Assembly (NCBI GenBank): GCA_944386225.1
Contig: CALXAH010000010.1
Span: 1-64,000 of the forward strand
DNA from: an uncultured Gemmiger sp.
Lineage (GTDB): Bacteria; Bacillota; Clostridia; Oscillospirales; Ruminococcaceae
Direction of reading: 5' to 3'
DNA length: 64,000 nt
Under the pieces are notes generated by a model. It was not told where the DNA came from, made no database searches, and saw nothing but the letters and a program-made list of their open reading frames with translations. Made by a program: the position numbers and the translations under genes. This document shows, in pieces, positions 45,712 through 53,080 of the stretch. The first letter of the stretch is position 1. Each line of letters opens with the position of its first letter.

Positions 45712-47046
45712 TTATTCCAGCCCCAGGGTGATGGCGTTGACCGCTTCGGTCAGGTCCACCGCCAGAGAGCGGTCCACCAGGCCCAACGTCGCGCCGTCCA
45801 GGGTGGCCAGACAGCTTTCGCCGTCGTACTGGTAAAGCACCACCGTCAGGCTGGGCCAGGTCTCGTTGTCCAGGTGTACGGTAAAGGCGATCTCCTGCTT
45901 CTTGGCGGGTTCCTCGCTGTTGAATTCGCTTACCGTCAGCGCGTCCACCGCGCTGCTCACCTCGTCAAATTCCACCTCGGTGTCGTTGATGGTCCAGGTA
46001 TCGCCGGAGTGGGTCAGGGTATATACGGTGTCATCCAGGGTAAAGCCCACGCTGGTCACCGCGTCCCAATCCAGGGCCAGCACCTCGTCCGGGCGCAAAG
46101 CGTCATAGTCGGTGGCGGTGATCTCCTCGTAGGACGTCTCGTCCACCTCATACACGATGGGGGAGTCATCCATCCGCATATAGCCGTTGCCGTCCTCGTC
46201 CTGCCCGAAGGCCAGCACAAAGCTGCTCTGGGCCTCGTCGGCGGTGCAGGTCACGGTAAACTGAAGGGCGGGCGCATCCAGCCCCCACTGGGCCAGATCC
46301 TCGTCGGTGGCGGTGTAGCTTACGTAATTGGCCCGGTCCAGTCCGTCAAAGGTGCTGATCAGGCCGGTCACCTTACCGGTGTCCAGCGCCTGGAAGCTGC
46401 CGTCCTGGTTCAGGTAGTAGTCGTAGGCATCGGTGTAGGTCAGTTCCTCGTCCGGGCGGTATTCCACCGTCAGGCTGGCCTCGCCCTCCACCGTGATGCT
46501 GTCCATGGTGGAGTAGTCGGGAATGGTATCCTGGGCCATCAGCTCATCCCGGTCCTCGGCCAGATATTCCGCCGGGTCGTCCTCGATCAGGTAGACCGTG
46601 CCGGTGCCCAGGGTCACATACCGCTTGCTGTCCATGGTGGAGTAGTCGCCCAGCTCCAGCACCGTCTCCCCGTCGGCGGTGGTCAGGGTCACCGTGCCGG
46701 TGGGGCTGGCCAGGCCGTACTGGGTAAAGTCCTCCACATCCTCGATGATAAAGCTGGCGGTCACGCTTTCAAAGTGTGCCAGCAGATCGGCCATCTTCTC
46801 CTGGTCGATCGGAAAGTCCGCGTCCGAGGCATCCTGCCAGACCCCGTCGGTCTGGGTAAAGCTCAGGCTGGTTTCGCCGTTTGTCCAGGAGATGCCGGTC
46901 AGATCATCGGAGGAGAGGGCCAGGATCTCCTCGCTGGTGGCGGAGATGCTGTCCATGTGGCGCTCCACCCCGGTGGCGATCACGATCGCCAGGCAGAGCA
47001 CCGCCAGAATCAGCAGCAGAATGGTCAGCTGTTTTGTCCGCTTCAT
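45712..47046 (-). CDS. DUF4340 domain protein of a Gld-type ABC operon
   Basis: 444 residues. N-terminal membrane anchor (TILLLILAVLCLAIVIATG) and an extracytoplasmic part with repeated beta-rich modules: SSDDLTGISWTNGETSLSFT, LELGDYSTMDSKRYV, LDWDAVTSVGFTLDDTVYTL. DUF4340 proteins recur next to GldG-like and ABC-2 genes; an accessory or sensor role at the outer face is inferred. Start overlaps the GldG stop by four bases. Confidence 0.85.
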   Translation of the reverse strand: MKRTKQLTILLLILAVLCLAIVIATGVERHMDSISATSEEILALSSDDLTGISWTNGETSLSFTQTDGVWQDASDADFPIDQEKMADLLAHFESVTASFIIEDVEDFTQYGLASPTGTVTLTTADGETVLELGDYSTMDSKRYVTLGTGTVYLIEDDPAEYLAEDRDELMAQDTIPDYSTMDSITVEGEASLTVEYRPDEELTYTDAYDYYLNQDGSFQALDTGKVTGLISTFDGLDRANYVSYTATDEDLAQWGLDAPALQFTVTCTADEAQSSFVLAFGQDEDGNGYMRMDDSPIVYEVDETSYEEITATDYDALRPDEVLALDWDAVTSVGFTLDDTVYTLTHSGDTWTINDTEVEFDEVSSAVDALTVSEFNSEEPAKKQEIAFTVHLDNETWPSLTVVLYQYDGESCLATLDGATLGLVDRSLAVDLTEAVNAITLGLE

Positions 47047-47891
47047 AGTTTCTTCCTCCTGCGCAGAATTTCGTCAATACCCAGCAGCAGGAAGCCCACC
47101 GGGATCACGCCGATCATCACGATCTTCAGCCAGGTGGCGGCCGAGGAGGAGATGGTCAGGTAGTTGTAGTCCAGGGATTTGGCGCGGATGGACACCGCGT
47201 CGATGTTCAGCAGCGAGAAATCGCTCGCCGTCTCGTAGTTGCTGCGGGCCAGCTCGTCGGTAAAGGTCTCGGACAGGGCCTGTTCCCCGTGGCCGCTGAG
47301 CAGGTAGACCTGGGGCAGATCCTCCCGCACCACATAGTCGATGGCCGAGGTGATCTGACCCTCGCCGTCAAAGGACTGGGACACCGATCCGGTGGTGTAG
47401 TAGCTGCTGGTATCGTATTCGTAGATGTCCTCGTAGGCGATGTACCGGCTCTTTTCACCGGATTCCACCACCAGCGAGTTGTTGGTCACCGTCTGGTCGG
47501 TGTACTGCTGGGCAAAGGTGGGGTAGACGTCCGGGTCCTTCTTGACCACGGTGATGTGCTCGGACAGGTCACCGTACCGGTCCAGCAGTTTTTCGATGAC
47601 GGTGTCCTCTTTGCCGGCCTGCACGATCCAGTAGATGGTCACATCCTGTTCCAGGTTGGTGGCCACCACCTTGGTGTCGGCGGTCAGGGAATAGAGCTGT
47701 GCCGCCGAGATATCCAGCTGGGTAAAGCGGGAGGGCAGCAGCCCTGCCAGCACGTTCACCGCGATCAGGATGGCCAGCACCACCAGGCACAGCACAAAGC
47801 TGTATCCGCCCACCTTGGCGGTGCGGGTGCCCAGCGCCTGCCGGTTTCTGGCCAGGGCGCTGTGCAGCTTGTTTTTATAACTGTTCTTCAT
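47043..47891 (-). CDS. GldG-like ABC accessory protein, internally shortened
   Basis: 282 residues. N-terminal membrane segment (FVLCLVVLAILIAVNVLAG), then the GldG/DUF4350-type domain (FTQLDISAAQLYSLT, EQDVTIYWIV, VYLLSGHGEQALSETF), then a C-terminal membrane anchor (WLKIVMIGVIPVGFLLLG). In relatives I know, a block of roughly 150-190 residues separates the HGEQ region from the conserved RAKSL-YLTI segment; here they are joined directly near residues 226-234 (about 47189-47213). No frameshift is present. It may be a natural in-frame deletion. Confidence 0.8.
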   Translation of the reverse strand: MKNSYKNKLHSALARNRQALGTRTAKVGGYSFVLCLVVLAILIAVNVLAGLLPSRFTQLDISAAQLYSLTADTKVVATNLEQDVTIYWIVQAGKEDTVIEKLLDRYGDLSEHITVVKKDPDVYPTFAQQYTDQTVTNNSLVVESGEKSRYIAYEDIYEYDTSSYYTTGSVSQSFDGEGQITSAIDYVVREDLPQVYLLSGHGEQALSETFTDELARSNYETASDFSLLNIDAVSIRAKSLDYNYLTISSSAATWLKIVMIGVIPVGFLLLGIDEILRRRKKL

Positions 47892-48751
47892 CCGTTATAC
47901 CTCTTTTTCTCCCAGGACTGTACGCACAGGAACAGGAAGAACGCGGCCACGCTCAGGTAGTATACGATGGCGGTCACGTCAAAGACCCCGTTCACAAAGG
48001 TGTAGAACCGCTCAAACAGAGACAGACGGCTCATCAGGTCGGGCAGCAGGGTGGCCAGAGAATCCGGGTTTACCAGCCAGACAACCCCCACCGCCGCCAG
48101 GCAGAGCACCAGCACCAGGATGCCCGCCGCGTCGGAGCAGGTCAGCCGCCGTACCAGCAGCGCCAGCAGGGCAGCGATCACCACCAGCGCCACCAGGTTG
48201 AAGGCGGTGGAGGCGATGTAGTCGGCCAGGGAGGCGCTGTAGCAGCAGAAGAGCATGACCACCACGCAGAGCCCTGCCGCCATGCCCTGGGATTCGGTCA
48301 GGGAGGAGATGAACATGCCGATGGCGATCAGCGCCAGACCCAGGAACACAAAGGCGATGAGCGCGCCGTAGGAGGTGGGCAGGTAGACTTCGCCGTACAG
48401 GGAGAAGATCAGCGGGTAGACACAGGCTACCAGCATGGGAATCACAAACACCAGCGCCATGGCAAAATACTTGCCCAGGATGATGTCGGTGGAAGAAAGG
48501 GGCAGCAGGGAGAGCAGCTGGTCGGTTTTCTGCTTTTTCTCCTCCGCCAGCACCCGCATGGTCAGGATGGGCACCAGGGCCACAAACCCGATGCAGAAGG
48601 TGCCCAGGGCATACTCAAAGTTGGCCACCGCCGCGTTGATGTTGTAGAGCATCGCGCCGATGCCGATGAATTCCAGCAGGAATGCCCCGAATACATAGGC
48701 CAGCAGCCCGTGGCTGTACAGGCCGGCCTCGTGCTTAAATACCGCTTTCAT
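47888..48751 (-). CDS. ABC-2 type permease (GldF-like)
   Basis: 287 residues with six or seven hydrophobic segments. FKHEAGLYSHGLLAYVFGAF start, EEKKQKTDQLLSLLPLSSTD cytoplasmic loop typical of ABC-2 permeases. Pairs with the ATPase encoded just upstream (17-bp overlap). Probably an exporter or a membrane-stress transporter; substrate unknown. Confidence 0.9.
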   Translation of the reverse strand: MKAVFKHEAGLYSHGLLAYVFGAFLLEFIGIGAMLYNINAAVANFEYALGTFCIGFVALVPILTMRVLAEEKKQKTDQLLSLLPLSSTDIILGKYFAMALVFVIPMLVACVYPLIFSLYGEVYLPTSYGALIAFVFLGLALIAIGMFISSLTESQGMAAGLCVVVMLFCCYSASLADYIASTAFNLVALVVIAALLALLVRRLTCSDAAGILVLVLCLAAVGVVWLVNPDSLATLLPDLMSRLSLFERFYTFVNGVFDVTAIVYYLSVAAFFLFLCVQSWEKKRYNG

Positions 48752-49712
48752 GGATGGGCTCCTTCTTTCCGGACGGTTCGTCCTCGGTCAGTTCGATAAA
48801 GATGTTCTCCAGATCCGCCCGCACCGGGGTCATCTGCAGAATGGGCCGTCCGGCTTTGGCAAAGGCCAGGAAGATGGCCCGGGCGGCGGCGTTCGCGTCG
48901 CCCTGCAGGGTCAGCTCGGCCCGGCAGCCGCCGGCCGCCTCGTCCGCCTGAACTTCGCAGCCGGTCACCTCCCGCACGCCGGCCAGCAGCCCCTGCACCT
49001 GGTCGGGGGTGGCCTCGGCGCACAGGGTCATCCGCCCGGCGGCGGTGAGCATCTTTTCCAGGTTCTGGGGGGTATCAAAGGCCACCAGTCTGCCGTGGGC
49101 GATGATCAGCACGCTCTCGCAGATGGCCTGCACCTCGCTCAGGATATGGCTGCTCAGGATTACGGTGTGCTTTTCGCCCAGCTGGCGGATCAGGTCGCGG
49201 ATCTCGATGATCTGCAGCGGATCCAGGCCCACGGTGGGCTCGTCCAGAATGATGTAGGGCGGGCTGCCCAGCAGCGCCTGGGCGATGCCCACCCGCTGCC
49301 GGTACCCCTTGGACAGGTTGCGGATCAGCCGCCCGGCCATCTCGTCCAGCCGGGTCTCGGCCACCACCCGGGCTACCTCGTCCGGGATCTGTTTGGCCGG
49401 GATGCCCTTGGCCTGGGCCACAAAGCTCAGGTACTCCCAGGGCGTTTCGTCGGTGTACAGGGGCGGGATCTCGGGCAGATACCCGATCAGCCGCTTGGCC
49501 TGCCGCGCGTCCTCAAAGATGTCGTGACCGTCGATGGTCACTTCCCCCGCGCTGGCGGCCAGACACCCGGTCATGATGTTCATGGTGGTGGATTTGCCCG
49601 CGCCGTTCGGCCCGAGGAACCCATAGATATGGCCCGTTTCCAGGGTGAACGAGATGTCGTCCACCGCGGTGACGCTGCCGTATCGTTTGGTCAAGTGTTC
49701 AACCGTTATCAT
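48735..49712 (-). CDS. ABC transporter ATP-binding protein (GldA-like)
   Basis: 325 residues. Walker A GPNGAGKSTT, signature LSKGYRQRVGIAQ, Walker B YIILDEPTVGLDP, H-loop VILSSHI. The C-terminal 90 residues are an accessory domain seen in this subfamily. First gene of the ABC-GldF-GldG-DUF4340 operon, all overlapping. Its promoter carries the direct repeats described at 49742-49774. Confidence 0.93.
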   Translation of the reverse strand: MITVEHLTKRYGSVTAVDDISFTLETGHIYGFLGPNGAGKSTTMNIMTGCLAASAGEVTIDGHDIFEDARQAKRLIGYLPEIPPLYTDETPWEYLSFVAQAKGIPAKQIPDEVARVVAETRLDEMAGRLIRNLSKGYRQRVGIAQALLGSPPYIILDEPTVGLDPLQIIEIRDLIRQLGEKHTVILSSHILSEVQAICESVLIIAHGRLVAFDTPQNLEKMLTAAGRMTLCAEATPDQVQGLLAGVREVTGCEVQADEAAGGCRAELTLQGDANAAARAIFLAFAKAGRPILQMTPVRADLENIFIELTEDEPSGKKEPIHESGI

Positions 49713-49741
49713 GGCAGATACCTCCGTAGTTCTTGGACTTT

Positions 49742-49774
49742 ACTGTATCACGCCGGGCTGAAACCAAACTGAAA
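49742..49774 (-). promoter_or_regulatory. response-regulator-type promoter of the ABC operon
   Basis: Minus strand: TTTCAG-N5-TTTCAG-N10-TACAGT. The two hexamers are 11 bp apart and sit where a -35 box would be; no consensus -35 is present. The geometry is identical to that of the two-component promoter at 51773-51805. Confidence 0.75.
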
Positions 49775-49826
49775 AAACCGCCCCCCGTCTGTGAAAGTTC
49801 CGCGAAACTGCCCGTAAGCGGGAACG

Positions 49827-49856
49827 AAAAACCGGACACACCGCGGTGTGTCCGGT
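49827..49856 (-). terminator. terminator of the two-component operon
   Basis: ACCGGACACACC pairs with GGTGTGTCCGGT around CGC; a T-run follows on the minus strand. Confidence 0.88.
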
Positions 49857-49863
49857 CAGAGTT

Positions 49864-51075
49864 TCAATGGCGCAGGGCGGGCAGCGATACGTAAAAGGTG
49901 TTGACACCCCTCTCGCTGGCAGCCCAGATGCGGCCCCGGTGGGCGGTCACGATCCGGTGGGCGATGGCCAGCCCCAGCCCGCAGCCCTCCCCGTGCCGGT
50001 GCTCCGGGTCGGCCCGGTAGAACCGCTTGAACAGCTTGGGCAGTTCCTGCGGGGGGATGGTGTCGCCCCGGCTGGTCACCGCCAGCACCGCCCGCCGCCC
50101 CTCCCGGTGCAGGGAGATGTGCACCACACTGGCGGGCGCGGCGTATTTCTGCCCGTTGTCCAGCAGGATGGCGGTCACCCGGCGCAGCTGGTCGGCGTTG
50201 CCCCGCACCCGGATGCCGGGCGCAAGGCTGGTGTCCAGCCCCAGCCCCTTTTCAAAATACAGCGGCTCAAAGGGCAGCAGGGCTTCCTCCACGGCGGCGC
50301 TCCAGTCCACCGGGCAGCGGGCCGCCCGCTCCGGCTCCCGGTCGGCCCGGGCCAGTTCCAGCAGCCGTTCCACCAGATCCTTCATCTGGCGGGACACGGT
50401 GCGGATATCCCCGGCCAGCCGGTCTTTCTCCGGCCCGGCGCTCTCCGGTGCGCAGAGCAGCTCCGCGTCGGTGAGAATCACGGTCAGCGGGGTTTTCAGC
50501 TCGTGGCTGGCGTCCGCCACAAATTGTTTCTGCTGCACCCAGGCCCGCTCCACCGGGCCCACCGCCCAGCGAGCCAGCAGGATACTCAGCACCAGAAAAG
50601 CCAGGAACGCCCCGCCGCAGATCAGAAGGCAGCTTTCCAGCAGACCGTTCAGGGTGCGGGTTTCGCCGGATATATCGGCGAACACGATGTAGCCGGTCTG
50701 GGGCATGTCCACCCGCAGAAACCGCAGCCCATAGGCCTCCAGCATGCCGCTGGCCGCCTCCTGCTGCAGCACCTCGTTCACGGCCTGCTGCAGAAATTCC
50801 GAATCGGACAGGTCGTAGTAGCCGCCGCCGGTGCCCTGCACCTGGCCGCCCTTGTCCACCTCCAGCACAAAATAGGGCAGCCGCATGCCGGAAAATTCCT
50901 CGTCCGGCGCCTGGGGCCGGGCCGGGTTCAGGGCGATCTGCCACATGGTGCGCAGGCTTTCCCGCTCCAGGCTTGCCCGGGTCAGCCCCAGCACCGCTGC
51001 CAGCACACAGAGCAGGATCACCGTCACGATGCTCATGGTGATGCAGACAAACTTGATCTTGAGCCGCCGGATCAT
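49864..51075 (-). CDS. sensor histidine kinase
   Basis: 403 residues. Membrane segments at residues about 8-30 and 160-180 flank an extracytoplasmic sensor loop of about 125 residues. HisKA motif VADASHELKTPLTVI (His is the phosphorylation site), N-box LLDNGQKYA, and G-box HGEGCGLGLAIAHRIV. Overlaps the response regulator by four bases. Stimulus unknown; the neighbouring ABC operon suggests envelope stress or an antimicrobial compound. Confidence 0.93.
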   Translation of the reverse strand: MIRRLKIKFVCITMSIVTVILLCVLAAVLGLTRASLERESLRTMWQIALNPARPQAPDEEFSGMRLPYFVLEVDKGGQVQGTGGGYYDLSDSEFLQQAVNEVLQQEAASGMLEAYGLRFLRVDMPQTGYIVFADISGETRTLNGLLESCLLICGGAFLAFLVLSILLARWAVGPVERAWVQQKQFVADASHELKTPLTVILTDAELLCAPESAGPEKDRLAGDIRTVSRQMKDLVERLLELARADREPERAARCPVDWSAAVEEALLPFEPLYFEKGLGLDTSLAPGIRVRGNADQLRRVTAILLDNGQKYAAPASVVHISLHREGRRAVLAVTSRGDTIPPQELPKLFKRFYRADPEHRHGEGCGLGLAIAHRIVTAHRGRIWAASERGVNTFYVSLPALRH

Positions 51076-51746
51076 CCCTGCGCCACCTCCAGATGATAGC
51101 CCACCCGGCGCACCGCCGCGATGTTCACGTCGGACCCCAGGCTTTTCAGCTTCTTGCGCAGAAAGCCCACATAGACCTCCACGCTGTTTTCCCCCGCGCC
51201 GGATTCAAAGCCCCACACCCGCGTCAGGATGACCTCTTTCGGGATATTGCCGCCCCCCGCCTGCATCAGCAGCCGCATCACGTCAAACTCCCGGGCGGAC
51301 AGGCGCAGGCTTTTTTCTCCGCAGCACAGGGTGGCCGCGTCCAGATCCAGGGCGGTGTTGCCGAACCGCAGCTGATCCACCTGGCCGCCCTGCCGCCGCA
51401 GCAGAGCCCGCACGCAGGCCAGCAGTTCGCCGATCTCGAAAGGTTTGGTCAGGTAGTAGTCCGCCCCGGCGTTCAGCCCCTCGATCCGATCGGAAAGATC
51501 CGAGCGGGCGGTGAGCATCAGAATCGGCACGGCGCTGTGCTTTCGGCGCAGATGCCGCGCCAGCTCAAAGCCGTTCAGCCCCGGCATCATCACATCCAGG
51601 ATCAGCAGGTCGTAGATGCCGGTGTCGGCGTATTCGGCGCCGGTGGCGCCGTCATAGGCAAGCTCCACCGCAAAGCCCTTGCGCTCCAGCAGGGTTTTCA
51701 GCGACTGGGCCAGCCGCTTTTCGTCCTCCACAATCAGAATCCGCAC
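51072..51746 (-). CDS. OmpR-family response regulator
   Basis: 224 residues from GTG 51746 (MRILIVEDEKRLAQSLKTLL), chosen because ATGAGG lies just upstream; a longer in-frame start adds 13 residues. Receiver Asp in LLILDVMMPGLNG, switch Thr in LMLTARSD, Lys in LTKPFEIGELLA; winged-helix effector with LSAREFDVMRLLMQ and VEVYVGFLRKKL. Autoregulation is likely from the repeats at 51773-51805. Confidence 0.94.
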   Translation of the reverse strand: MRILIVEDEKRLAQSLKTLLERKGFAVELAYDGATGAEYADTGIYDLLILDVMMPGLNGFELARHLRRKHSAVPILMLTARSDLSDRIEGLNAGADYYLTKPFEIGELLACVRALLRRQGGQVDQLRFGNTALDLDAATLCCGEKSLRLSAREFDVMRLLMQAGGGNIPKEVILTRVWGFESGAGENSVEVYVGFLRKKLKSLGSDVNIAAVRRVGYHLEVAQG

Positions 51747-51772
51747 ACAACGCACCTCATTTCTTCCCTTAT

Positions 51773-51805
51773 ATTGTAAAGACAAAAGCTGAAAAGAAGC
51801 TGAAA
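51773..51805 (-). promoter_or_regulatory. response-regulator-type promoter of the two-component genes
   Basis: Minus strand: TTTCAG-N5-TTTCAG-N10-TACAAT. Same hexamer, same 11-bp phase and same 10-bp gap to the -10 box as the ABC operon promoter. Confidence 0.78.
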
Positions 51806-51825
51806 GTCTTGTGTAGATTTGGTGG

Positions 51826-51854
51826 AAAAAAGCCGCACCCCGAAAGGTGCGGCT
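51826..51854 (-). terminator. terminator of the GltD-like gene
   Basis: AGCCGCACC pairs with GGTGCGGCT around CCGAAA; T-run follows on the minus strand. It also isolates the two-component promoter from upstream reading. Confidence 0.88.
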
Positions 51855-51862
51855 GTGCGGAT

Positions 51863-53080
51863 TTATTCCACTGTCTGCAGATACTCGTCCATGGCGCGGG
51901 CCACGTCCTTGGAATGGCGTACCGCCTCCACCACGGTGCGGGCGCCGCTTACCACGTCGCCGCTGCCGAAGATCCCCGGGCGGCTGGTGCGGCCCTCCTC
52001 GTCCGCGGCCAGCAGGCCCCGGTCGGTCACGGCCAGGCCGGTGGTGGTATTCACGATCTTGTCCTTGGGGCCCTGGCTGGCGGCGATCACCACGCTGTCC
52101 GCCCGGAACAGCTTCGGCTCGCTCAGCCCGGTTACCTCGTTGTTTTCGTCAAAGGTGGCCTGCTGGTAGAGCACCCCTTCGTCGGTGATCTCCACCGGGC
52201 GGGCGCCGTAGTGCATCTCCACCCCGTCGGCCACCGCGTATTCCAGTTCCCGCACGCTGGCGGCAGCCTGGTTGCGGCGGCAGAACACATGCACCTGCCG
52301 CACCCCCTTGCGGATGGCGGTGCGGGCCACGTCCATGGCCGAGTTGCCCGCCCCGATCACCACCAGGCTGCGGCCCAGATCGTATACGTCCGGGTTTACC
52401 AGGTAGTCGATGGCAAAGTGCACATGGCCCAGGCTCTCGCCGGGGATGCCCAGCTTTTTGGGCCGCCATACGCCGGTGCCGATAAAGATGGCCTTGTAGC
52501 CGTCCCGCTGCAGGTCGTCCACCGTCAGCGCCCCGCCGATCACCGTGTTGGGCCGGATCTTGATGCCCAGCTGCACCAGCTGGGCCTGGTACCGGTCCAG
52601 CACGCTCTTGGGCAGGCGGAACTCCGGGATGCCGTACCGCAGCACGCCGCCGATCTTGTCCCGGCTTTCAAACAGGGTCACGTCGTAGCCCTTCTGGGCC
52701 AGCAGCACCGCGATGGTGATGCCCGCCGGGCCGGAGCCGATGATGGCCACCCGTTTGCCCCTGGCGGCCTGCCGCTGCAGCTGCAGCCGGTCCAGATGGG
52801 CGTCGGAAATGTAGTTTTCAATACTGGAAATGTGCACCGGCGCGCCCTTGCGGCCCAGTACACAGTGCCCCTCGCACTGCTTTTCGTGGTCGCACACCAG
52901 CGAGCAGATCACGCTCAGCGGGTTGTTTTCAAACAGCATCTGACCCGCCTCTTCGGTGCGGTGCTCCAGAAACATCCGGATCATGTCCGGGATCGGGGTA
53001 TTGATGGGGCAGCCCTTGCGGCACTGGGGAACCTTGCAGTTCAGGCAGCGCCGGGCTTCGTTTACCACATGGATGGCCAT
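51863..53080 (-). CDS. GltD-like FAD/NAD(P) oxidoreductase with Fe-S domain
   Basis: 405 residues, like the glutamate synthase small subunit and relatives (NfnB, SudA, dihydropyrimidine dehydrogenase A). N-terminal cysteine cluster (RRCLNCKVPQCRKGCPINTP and CSLVCDHEKQCEGHCV) for two [4Fe-4S] clusters, FAD site VAIIGSGPAGITIAVLLAQK, NAD(P) site VVIGAGNSAMDVARTA, and the C-terminal GIFGSGDVVSGARTVVEAVR. No glutamate synthase large subunit or partner gene is near, so the electron acceptor is unknown. Confidence 0.9.
   Translation of the reverse strand: MAIHVVNEARRCLNCKVPQCRKGCPINTPIPDMIRMFLEHRTEEAGQMLFENNPLSVICSLVCDHEKQCEGHCVLGRKGAPVHISSIENYISDAHLDRLQLQRQAARGKRVAIIGSGPAGITIAVLLAQKGYDVTLFESRDKIGGVLRYGIPEFRLPKSVLDRYQAQLVQLGIKIRPNTVIGGALTVDDLQRDGYKAIFIGTGVWRPKKLGIPGESLGHVHFAIDYLVNPDVYDLGRSLVVIGAGNSAMDVARTAIRKGVRQVHVFCRRNQAAASVRELEYAVADGVEMHYGARPVEITDEGVLYQQATFDENNEVTGLSEPKLFRADSVVIAASQGPKDKIVNTTTGLAVTDRGLLAADEEGRTSRPGIFGSGDVVSGARTVVEAVRHSKDVARAMDEYLQTVE

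Follow-up and report, generated by a model that had tools for sequence, protein, structure and literature searches.

The question raised by this locus is whether one two-component system governs both its own genes and a neighbouring ABC transporter through the same promoter element. The locus lies in a stretch of 64,000 nucleotides (the window), positions 1 to 64,000 of contig CALXAH010000010.1 from an uncultured Gemmiger sp. (assembly GCA_944386225.1), in which the genes of an OmpR/PhoB-family response regulator and a sensor histidine kinase are followed on the same strand by an operon for a transporter resembling the Gld proteins (Table 1). Our answer, drawn from sequence, is that the regulator most probably controls its own operon and the adjacent Gld-type transporter operon through a tandem TTTCAG box, by a promoter code like that of CiaR.

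One box at two promoters and its conservation

A preliminary description of this DNA had reported that the two promoters have the same layout, TTTCAG-N5-TTTCAG-N10 and then the -10, and both sites match it in every letter, the -10 hexamers being where it had put them. It had also held that neither promoter has a real -35, and our search of positions 49700-51900 for a sigma-70 -35/-10 pair found none. The end of the -10 at the regulator promoter is 26 bp from the GTG start of the response regulator, the transporter promoter site is 29 bp from the gene of the GldA-like ATPase, and at the transporter promoter a TG stands one base 5' of the -10. When the window was searched for TTTCAG-N5-TTTCAG-N10-TANNNT with up to 2 mismatches, 2 matches were found against 0.03 expected, and 1 of 100 shuffles gave 2. 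The same pattern, which the preliminary description had proposed for a genome search, has 2 perfect copies in the 3.38-Mb genome, both at the window promoters, along with 7 further matches that each have 2 mismatches, compared to 3 for the reversed control pattern. That there is no third copy, as had been noted by eye, is true of perfect copies both genome-wide and in the four genomes of the genus. The two promoters had been called unlinked, which they are not in the window: they are 2 kb apart and head neighbouring operons on the same strand with a terminator between, and only in some relatives (G197 and G073) do they lie apart. Because an intrinsic terminator stands before each promoter, the transporter operon is probably a transcription unit separate from the regulator/kinase operon.

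All four genus genomes have 2 perfect copies of the box (15/15 fixed positions), at the regulator and the ATPase promoters, and in one of them (G197) the two boxed operons are on different contigs with both boxes perfect. With up to 2 mismatches these four genomes gave 27 matches, 8 perfect and 19 imperfect, compared to 15 for the reversed control; the imperfect matches are near the control level and therefore give no evidence of further targets, and the 7 in the window genome were set aside as unconvincing. For more distant relatives we assembled 87 loci, namely the best 80 of 564 stretches homologous to the regulator and 7 loci from a family search (2 in the genus), and a box was called when at least 13 of the 15 fixed positions matched within 160 bp upstream. 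The box was found at 38 of the 52 regulators with at least 60% identity and at all 18 Gld-type ATPase genes with at least 50% identity (15 from the contig scan and 3 from the family, 2 of them of the genus). On the 87 loci, no cell of the count exceeded 1 for spacers of N2-N4 and N6-N8, and there were 0 of 105 with the reversed pattern and 0 of 2,100 in shuffled upstream regions. A distance of 10 bp to the -10 gave the highest count in every set; counts at other distances are also high since the 12 hexamer bases and one chance match already make 13. Conservation upstream of orthologues was the test that the preliminary description had set for its proposal, and the box is kept at the regulators and at the Gld ATPases.

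Whether the box follows the regulator was examined in a family sample of 197 genomes, 142 of which have a Gld-like ATPase (1e-80) and 28 the regulator (1e-60). The box stands before 5 of the 30 best ATPase loci. All five come from genomes whose regulator matches at 1e-70 or better (G000, G008, G127, G130 and G073), and in one of these (G073) the regulator and ATPase operons are on different contigs. The 25 unboxed loci comprise 23 in genomes without the regulator at 1e-60 and 2 with a regulator at 1e-64 to 1e-66. When 15 ATPase loci from 14 further regulator-bearing genomes were added, none of the 15 reached 14/15, and the simple rule that the box is present wherever the regulator is was given up. 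All 15 belong to another ATPase clade. In the pooled 45 loci the box is present at 5 of 8 where the regulator is at 1e-70 or better and at 0 of 37 elsewhere (weaker or no regulator). In the tree of the ATPases, the clade concerned (25 rows, support 87) has 18 members with the box and 7 without, 6 of the latter in genomes without the regulator at 1e-60 and the seventh (G145) in a genome with a regulator at 1e-65. The box, the regulator and one ATPase subfamily thus occur together, and the regulator alone gives other Gld-like operons no box. A second Gld-like operon in the window genome (L212, G000:C6:82834-83781) has no box, nor has the second one of G008; the absence from the paralogous operon of the window genome speaks for the proposed control.

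Some variant repeats were seen in this sample. The promoters of sister Gld ATPases in G145 (L189) and G189 (L193) have diverged 11-bp repeats, CTTTAG-N5-ATTTAG and CTTTAG-N5-ATTAAG, respectively, at 10 bp from TATACT. A changed repeat, TTCAAG-N5-TTCAAG, is shared in G098 by the promoter of the regulator (L114) and that of a Gld-like ATPase on a different contig (L224), where it stands 9 and 10 bp before the -10; the two sites may have changed together, a co-change that was seen after the fact.

The regulator, its known relatives and the alternatives

The response regulator has the receiver and winged-helix Trans_reg_C domains of the OmpR family, as the preliminary description had it, and the box is of the kind that such regulators read, with head-to-tail sites at a phase of about 11 bp (N5 spacing). 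Its recognition helix, taken from alignments, is SVEVYVGFLRKKL. A probable course of events is that the kinase senses a condition of the cell envelope and phosphorylates the regulator, which would then bind as a head-to-tail dimer to the TTTCAG half-sites, whose spacing of 11 bp places them on the same face of the DNA, at the position of the -35, and would recruit RNA polymerase to the nearby -10. Within the genus it would have two targets, its own operon, which would give positive feedback, and the adjacent Gld-type ABC transporter operon. The preliminary description had proposed that the regulator activates its own genes and the transporter in a circuit for sensing and export; conservation of the box at both operons speaks for control of the two, and we infer activation rather than repression (from position only), export, binding, the signal and the transported substrate.

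The closest model is CiaR of Streptococcus. Its site, NTTAAG/TTTAAG-N5-TTTAAG with 10 bases to TATAAT, has been used for the prediction of promoters of cia-dependent small RNAs (csRNAs), the G is extremely important and the recognition helix is VVEVYVSKVRKKL (PMC3091779). CiaR is of the OmpR family and has htrA as a target (PMC8317062; PMC8186281), and ciaRH feeds back on its own operon (PMC8317062). The helices of CiaR and the window regulator are identical at 9 of 13 residues, a comparison made over the recognition helix, and common to both systems are the N5 direct repeat, the 10 bp to the -10 and the G at position 6 of each half-site. They differ at position 4 of the half-site, which is C in TTTCAG and A in TTTAAG, and the window sites do not match NTTAAG-N5-TTTAAG. 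Among the 65 of 108 related rows that have a site of at least 14/15, position 4 of the two half-sites was C/C in 42, A/A in 11, C then A in 11 and T then A in 1. Covariation of this base with regulator residues was looked for and dismissed, as none of the 15 highest-scoring positions is in the recognition helix. The targets differ as well: the window system has a Gld-type transporter where CiaRH has htrA, and the htrA promoter of this genus is without the TTTCAG box, unlike in the CiaRH regulon, whereas relatives do have a boxed HtrA. Judged by box, spacings and helix, on which the likeness rests, the window system is CiaR-like in its working and a variant in its sequence.

Three other described systems come near to it. 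BAS0540-BAS0541 of Bacillus anthracis, called the closest CiaRH homologue there, has a regulator that in gel shifts binds TTTAAG-N5-TTTAAG 5' of its own gene and of a resistance-nodulation-division (RND)-family membrane fusion protein (MFP) transporter gene; its half-sites are TTTAAG and there is no Gld-type transporter among the targets described in the part available (PMC4938410). RR_1586 of Clostridioides difficile binds a similar box in vitro with the half-site TTAAG, and its predicted targets, unlike those of the window system, include phosphate transport and sporulation genes (PMC6222199). CutRS of Streptomyces, a secretion stress system, binds at the promoters of HtrA-family proteases as well as at its own; its targets are HtrA3, HtrB and a VKOR and not a Gld-type transporter, and the part available describes no matching box (PMC10433416). 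The preliminary description had not recognised the circuit as a described one. In the open-licence literature we found no paper that describes the pairing of regulator, box and Gld transporter, none on GldG with DUF4340 and, among the matches listed, no study by title of a GldA/F/G operon in Firmicutes, but the promoter layout itself had already been described for CiaR. The box is also reminiscent of the PmrA/QseB box.

The alternatives concern how the box works, what reads it and whether it means anything at all. It is improbable that the regulator binds the box and represses one or both operons, with the kinase signal relieving or adding to the repression. The box does overlap the -35 region, CiaR controls one promoter, manLMN, negatively (PMC8317062) and CutR directly activates htrA3 and represses htrB (PMC10433416), but here there is no -35 with which the promoter could work unaided, and the 10 bp from the repeat to the -10 is the very distance that predicts CiaR-dependent csRNA promoters (PMC3091779), the fixed distance being what argues for contact with the polymerase. 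Still less probable is that the box is read by another OmpR-like regulator instead of the adjacent one. At a cut-off of 1e-15 the genome has 18 OmpR-like regulators from which to choose, and the presence of the regulator alone does not predict a box at every Gld-like operon; nevertheless the helix VEVYV..LRKKL is found in the window regulator alone, the other 17 lack both this helix and an own-promoter box of at least 13/15 (the next best is 12), and the close homologues counted above mostly have the box at their own promoter (38 of 52). Hardly any credence can be given to chance similarity or to a promoter duplicated together with its neighbouring operon, both of which we reject in view of conservation, the specificity of the spacing and differing flanks. 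By eye, the flanks and the spacers of the two promoters are different, and the box persists in all 4 genus genomes, at each of the 18 Gld promoters close to the regulator and where the operons are divergent or apart; what can be said for chance or duplication is that the sites are 2 kb apart in one genome, that the hexamers are of a common OmpR-family type and that a window shuffle could, as noted, give two matches at 2 mismatches.

Control of both operons by the adjacent regulator is thus the reading we prefer, and several points weigh against it. Since the operons are adjacent, two sites in one genome are by themselves weak evidence and are less striking than unlinked ones would be; the strength of the case comes from the comparative data. 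These data have exceptions: 14 of the 52 close regulators are without a 13/15 site within 160 bp, at 44-60% identity only 10 of 35 regulators have the box, 3 of the 8 loci with a regulator at 1e-70 or better are unboxed (one in G190 and two in G188, of the other ATPase clade), and so are all 12 of the added loci whose genomes have a weaker regulator. Nor are related loci independent of each other: L017 is a near copy of L018 and L029 of L033, and the five genomes with a box in the family sample come from three genera, one of which contributes three of them. Finally, the GldG-like protein of the window is internally shortened, and therefore the transporter may be nonfunctional here, provided that the assembly is correct.

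Proteins of the two operons

The coordinates of the two promoters, the terminators and the genes are collected in Table 1.

Table 1. Features of the two operons in the window (aa, amino acids; N, any base)
Feature	Position	Strand	Details
Two-component operon promoter	51773..51805	minus	TTTCAG 51805-51800, N5, TTTCAG 51794-51789, N10, -10 TACAAT 51778-51773; exact match
Gld-type ABC operon promoter	49742..49774	minus	TTTCAG 49774-49769, N5, TTTCAG 49763-49758, N10, -10 TACAGT 49747-49742; exact match
Intrinsic terminator 5' of regulator promoter	51831..51854	minus	10-bp stem, then T run
Intrinsic terminator between kinase gene and transporter promoter	49830..49857	minus	12-bp stem, then T run; perfect 13-nt inverted repeat
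OmpR/PhoB-family response regulator	51072..51746	minus	224 aa, GTG start; Pfam Response_reg 4.4e-31, Trans_reg_C 6.6e-16
Sensor histidine kinase	49864..51075	minus	403 aa; Pfam HisKA and HATPase_c only
ABC transporter ATPase, GldA-like	48735..49712	minus	325 aa; Pfam ABC_tran; NCBIfam GldA 271.4 bits (cut-off 402.6)
ABC-2 type permease, GldF-like	47888..48751	minus	287 aa; Pfam ABC2_membrane_3; NCBIfam GldF 66.5 bits (cut-off 288.5)
GldG-like auxiliary protein	47043..47891	minus	282 aa; Pfam DUF7088 only; NCBIfam GldG 18.3 bits (cut-off 389.85)
DUF4340 protein, fourth operon gene	45712..47046	minus	444 aa; Pfam DUF4340 2.4e-38

The kinase has no HAMP match in Pfam. In an AlphaFold model from 31 sequences (mean predicted local distance difference test score, pLDDT, 79.8) a long N-terminal helix and a long middle helix, which we take as membrane helices, flank one domain of about 85 residues; prediction from the single sequence had given a poor model (mean pLDDT 46.8). 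Among the 50 Foldseek matches listed of 1,031, there was no lead to the fold of the sensor domain, the titles being mainly those of kinase structures.

The naming of the transporter operon in the preliminary description was confirmed by Pfam for a Gld-like ATPase, a permease, a GldG-like protein and a DUF4340 protein, with the reservation that the GldG-like protein is shortened. None of the proteins reached the NCBIfam equivalog cut-offs for GldA, GldF and GldG, the GldG score being that of the shortened protein. GldA-GldF-GldG of gliding motility in Bacteroidota are likewise an ATPase, an ABC-2 permease and a GldG-like protein in one operon, and the window operon differs from that system in its DUF4340 partner and in its scores below the cut-offs; gliding is presumably not to be expected here. 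The window GldG-like protein is about 205 residues shorter, in frame, than its counterparts of 487 aa in G008 and 485 aa in G127, and the ABC_transp_aux domain (PF09822) of the G008 protein is missing from it. By eye from the protein sequences, DAV stands on both sides of the deletion junction; the shortening may be real or may be a fault of the assembly. Further deletions at this locus were seen in the sister genome G197 (L215 and L214), a 75%-complete assembly, where the kinase gene fuses residues near 103 to residues near 261 in frame and where GldF residue 202 adjoins DUF4340 residue 11.

Other genes bearing the box and what they suggest

When either C or A was accepted at position 4 and the -10 was allowed to lie 9-11 bp away, the 87 loci (972,603 bases) gave 41 sites at regulators, a further 13 at Gld ATPases and another 32 elsewhere. 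Of these 32, 26, counted from the site list, lie no more than about 420 bp from the start of the regulator and point the opposite way. By Pfam, boxed genes include HtrA-type trypsin-PDZ proteases (L012, L013, L015 and L044), a VTC-DUF4956-CotH operon (L024) and an operon divergent from the regulator that encodes an SLH-domain protein, a HlyD-like adaptor and an ABC ATPase (L053); the HtrA gene of L157 is also boxed, and in G190, where no Gld operon carries the box, it faces a VTC-DUF4956-CotH-like operon beside the regulator (L121). Sugar-ABC-transporter-like operons, so named by N-terminal sequence, are divergent from a 45-48% identical regulator in L064 and L074 and have TTTAAG-type boxes. 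Genome-wide in 12 relatives, 48 matches with at most 1 mismatch were found, compared to 1 for the reversed control. The three sites of G202 (Candidatus Faecousia faecavium) are at the regulator, at the Gld ATPase and at an HtrA gene on another contig, one site in G201 marks a VTC-DUF4956 operon on another contig, and in G198 (Flavonifractor plautii) and G205 one box pair is common to a second regulator and a gene divergent from it, which on checking is an adaptor in G205. HtrA, VTC-CotH and adaptor-ABC targets point to the cell envelope, and therefore the targets in relatives suggest a cell-envelope regulon that is wider than a transporter.

Counted anywhere in the 87 loci, boxed or not, the gene types were Gld in 17, VTC and CotH in 16, VTC in 4, HtrA in 4, adaptor in 4, Gld and HtrA in 1 and none in 41, where none may mean that the gene was cut off, some loci being short. 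On a tree of 82 regulators, many forks of which are weak, these labels need 30 changes (minimum 6; shuffled mean 39.2, with 0 of 200 as low), and by this tree the effector labels are clustered and yet exchanged repeatedly.

HtrA was not accepted as a target of the TTTCAG box within the genus, where the box is absent from all four htrA promoters (L149 at G000:C22, L148, L150 and L151; best 12/15) and TTTCAC half-sites stand instead. All four promoters have TTTCAC-N5-TTTCAC, with a third TTTCAC 22 bp further along that stands 10 bp before TATACT, and this box, with C for G, is perhaps read by another regulator. Repeats of this type, for example TGTCAC-N5-TTTCAC or TTTCAC-N5-TTTCAC 10 bp before a -10-like hexamer, were also seen at Gld-like ATPase promoters of the other clade (L216, L225, L226, L227 and L230) and are perhaps a second regulon.

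The broadest interpretation, which to our mind could equally well hold or fail, is that gut Clostridia share an undescribed envelope stress regulon whose box is a TTTCAG variant of that of CiaR, and in which one regulator family with a near-fixed recognition helix keeps the box and the feedback while the effector is swapped by lineage among the Gld-type ABC/DUF4340 transporter, HtrA, VTC-DUF4956-CotH and the adaptor-ABC exporter. If this is true, the Gld-type transporter would be an envelope-maintenance or export machine in Firmicutes that do not glide, and a transporter family of gut Firmicutes for which we found no functional study in the open-licence literature would gain a regulator along with a promoter code and an envelope role that can be tested. 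With effectors exchanged while regulator and box stay together, the system would then offer a case for studying how regulons are rewired, and the box can be used to predict targets in other genomes.

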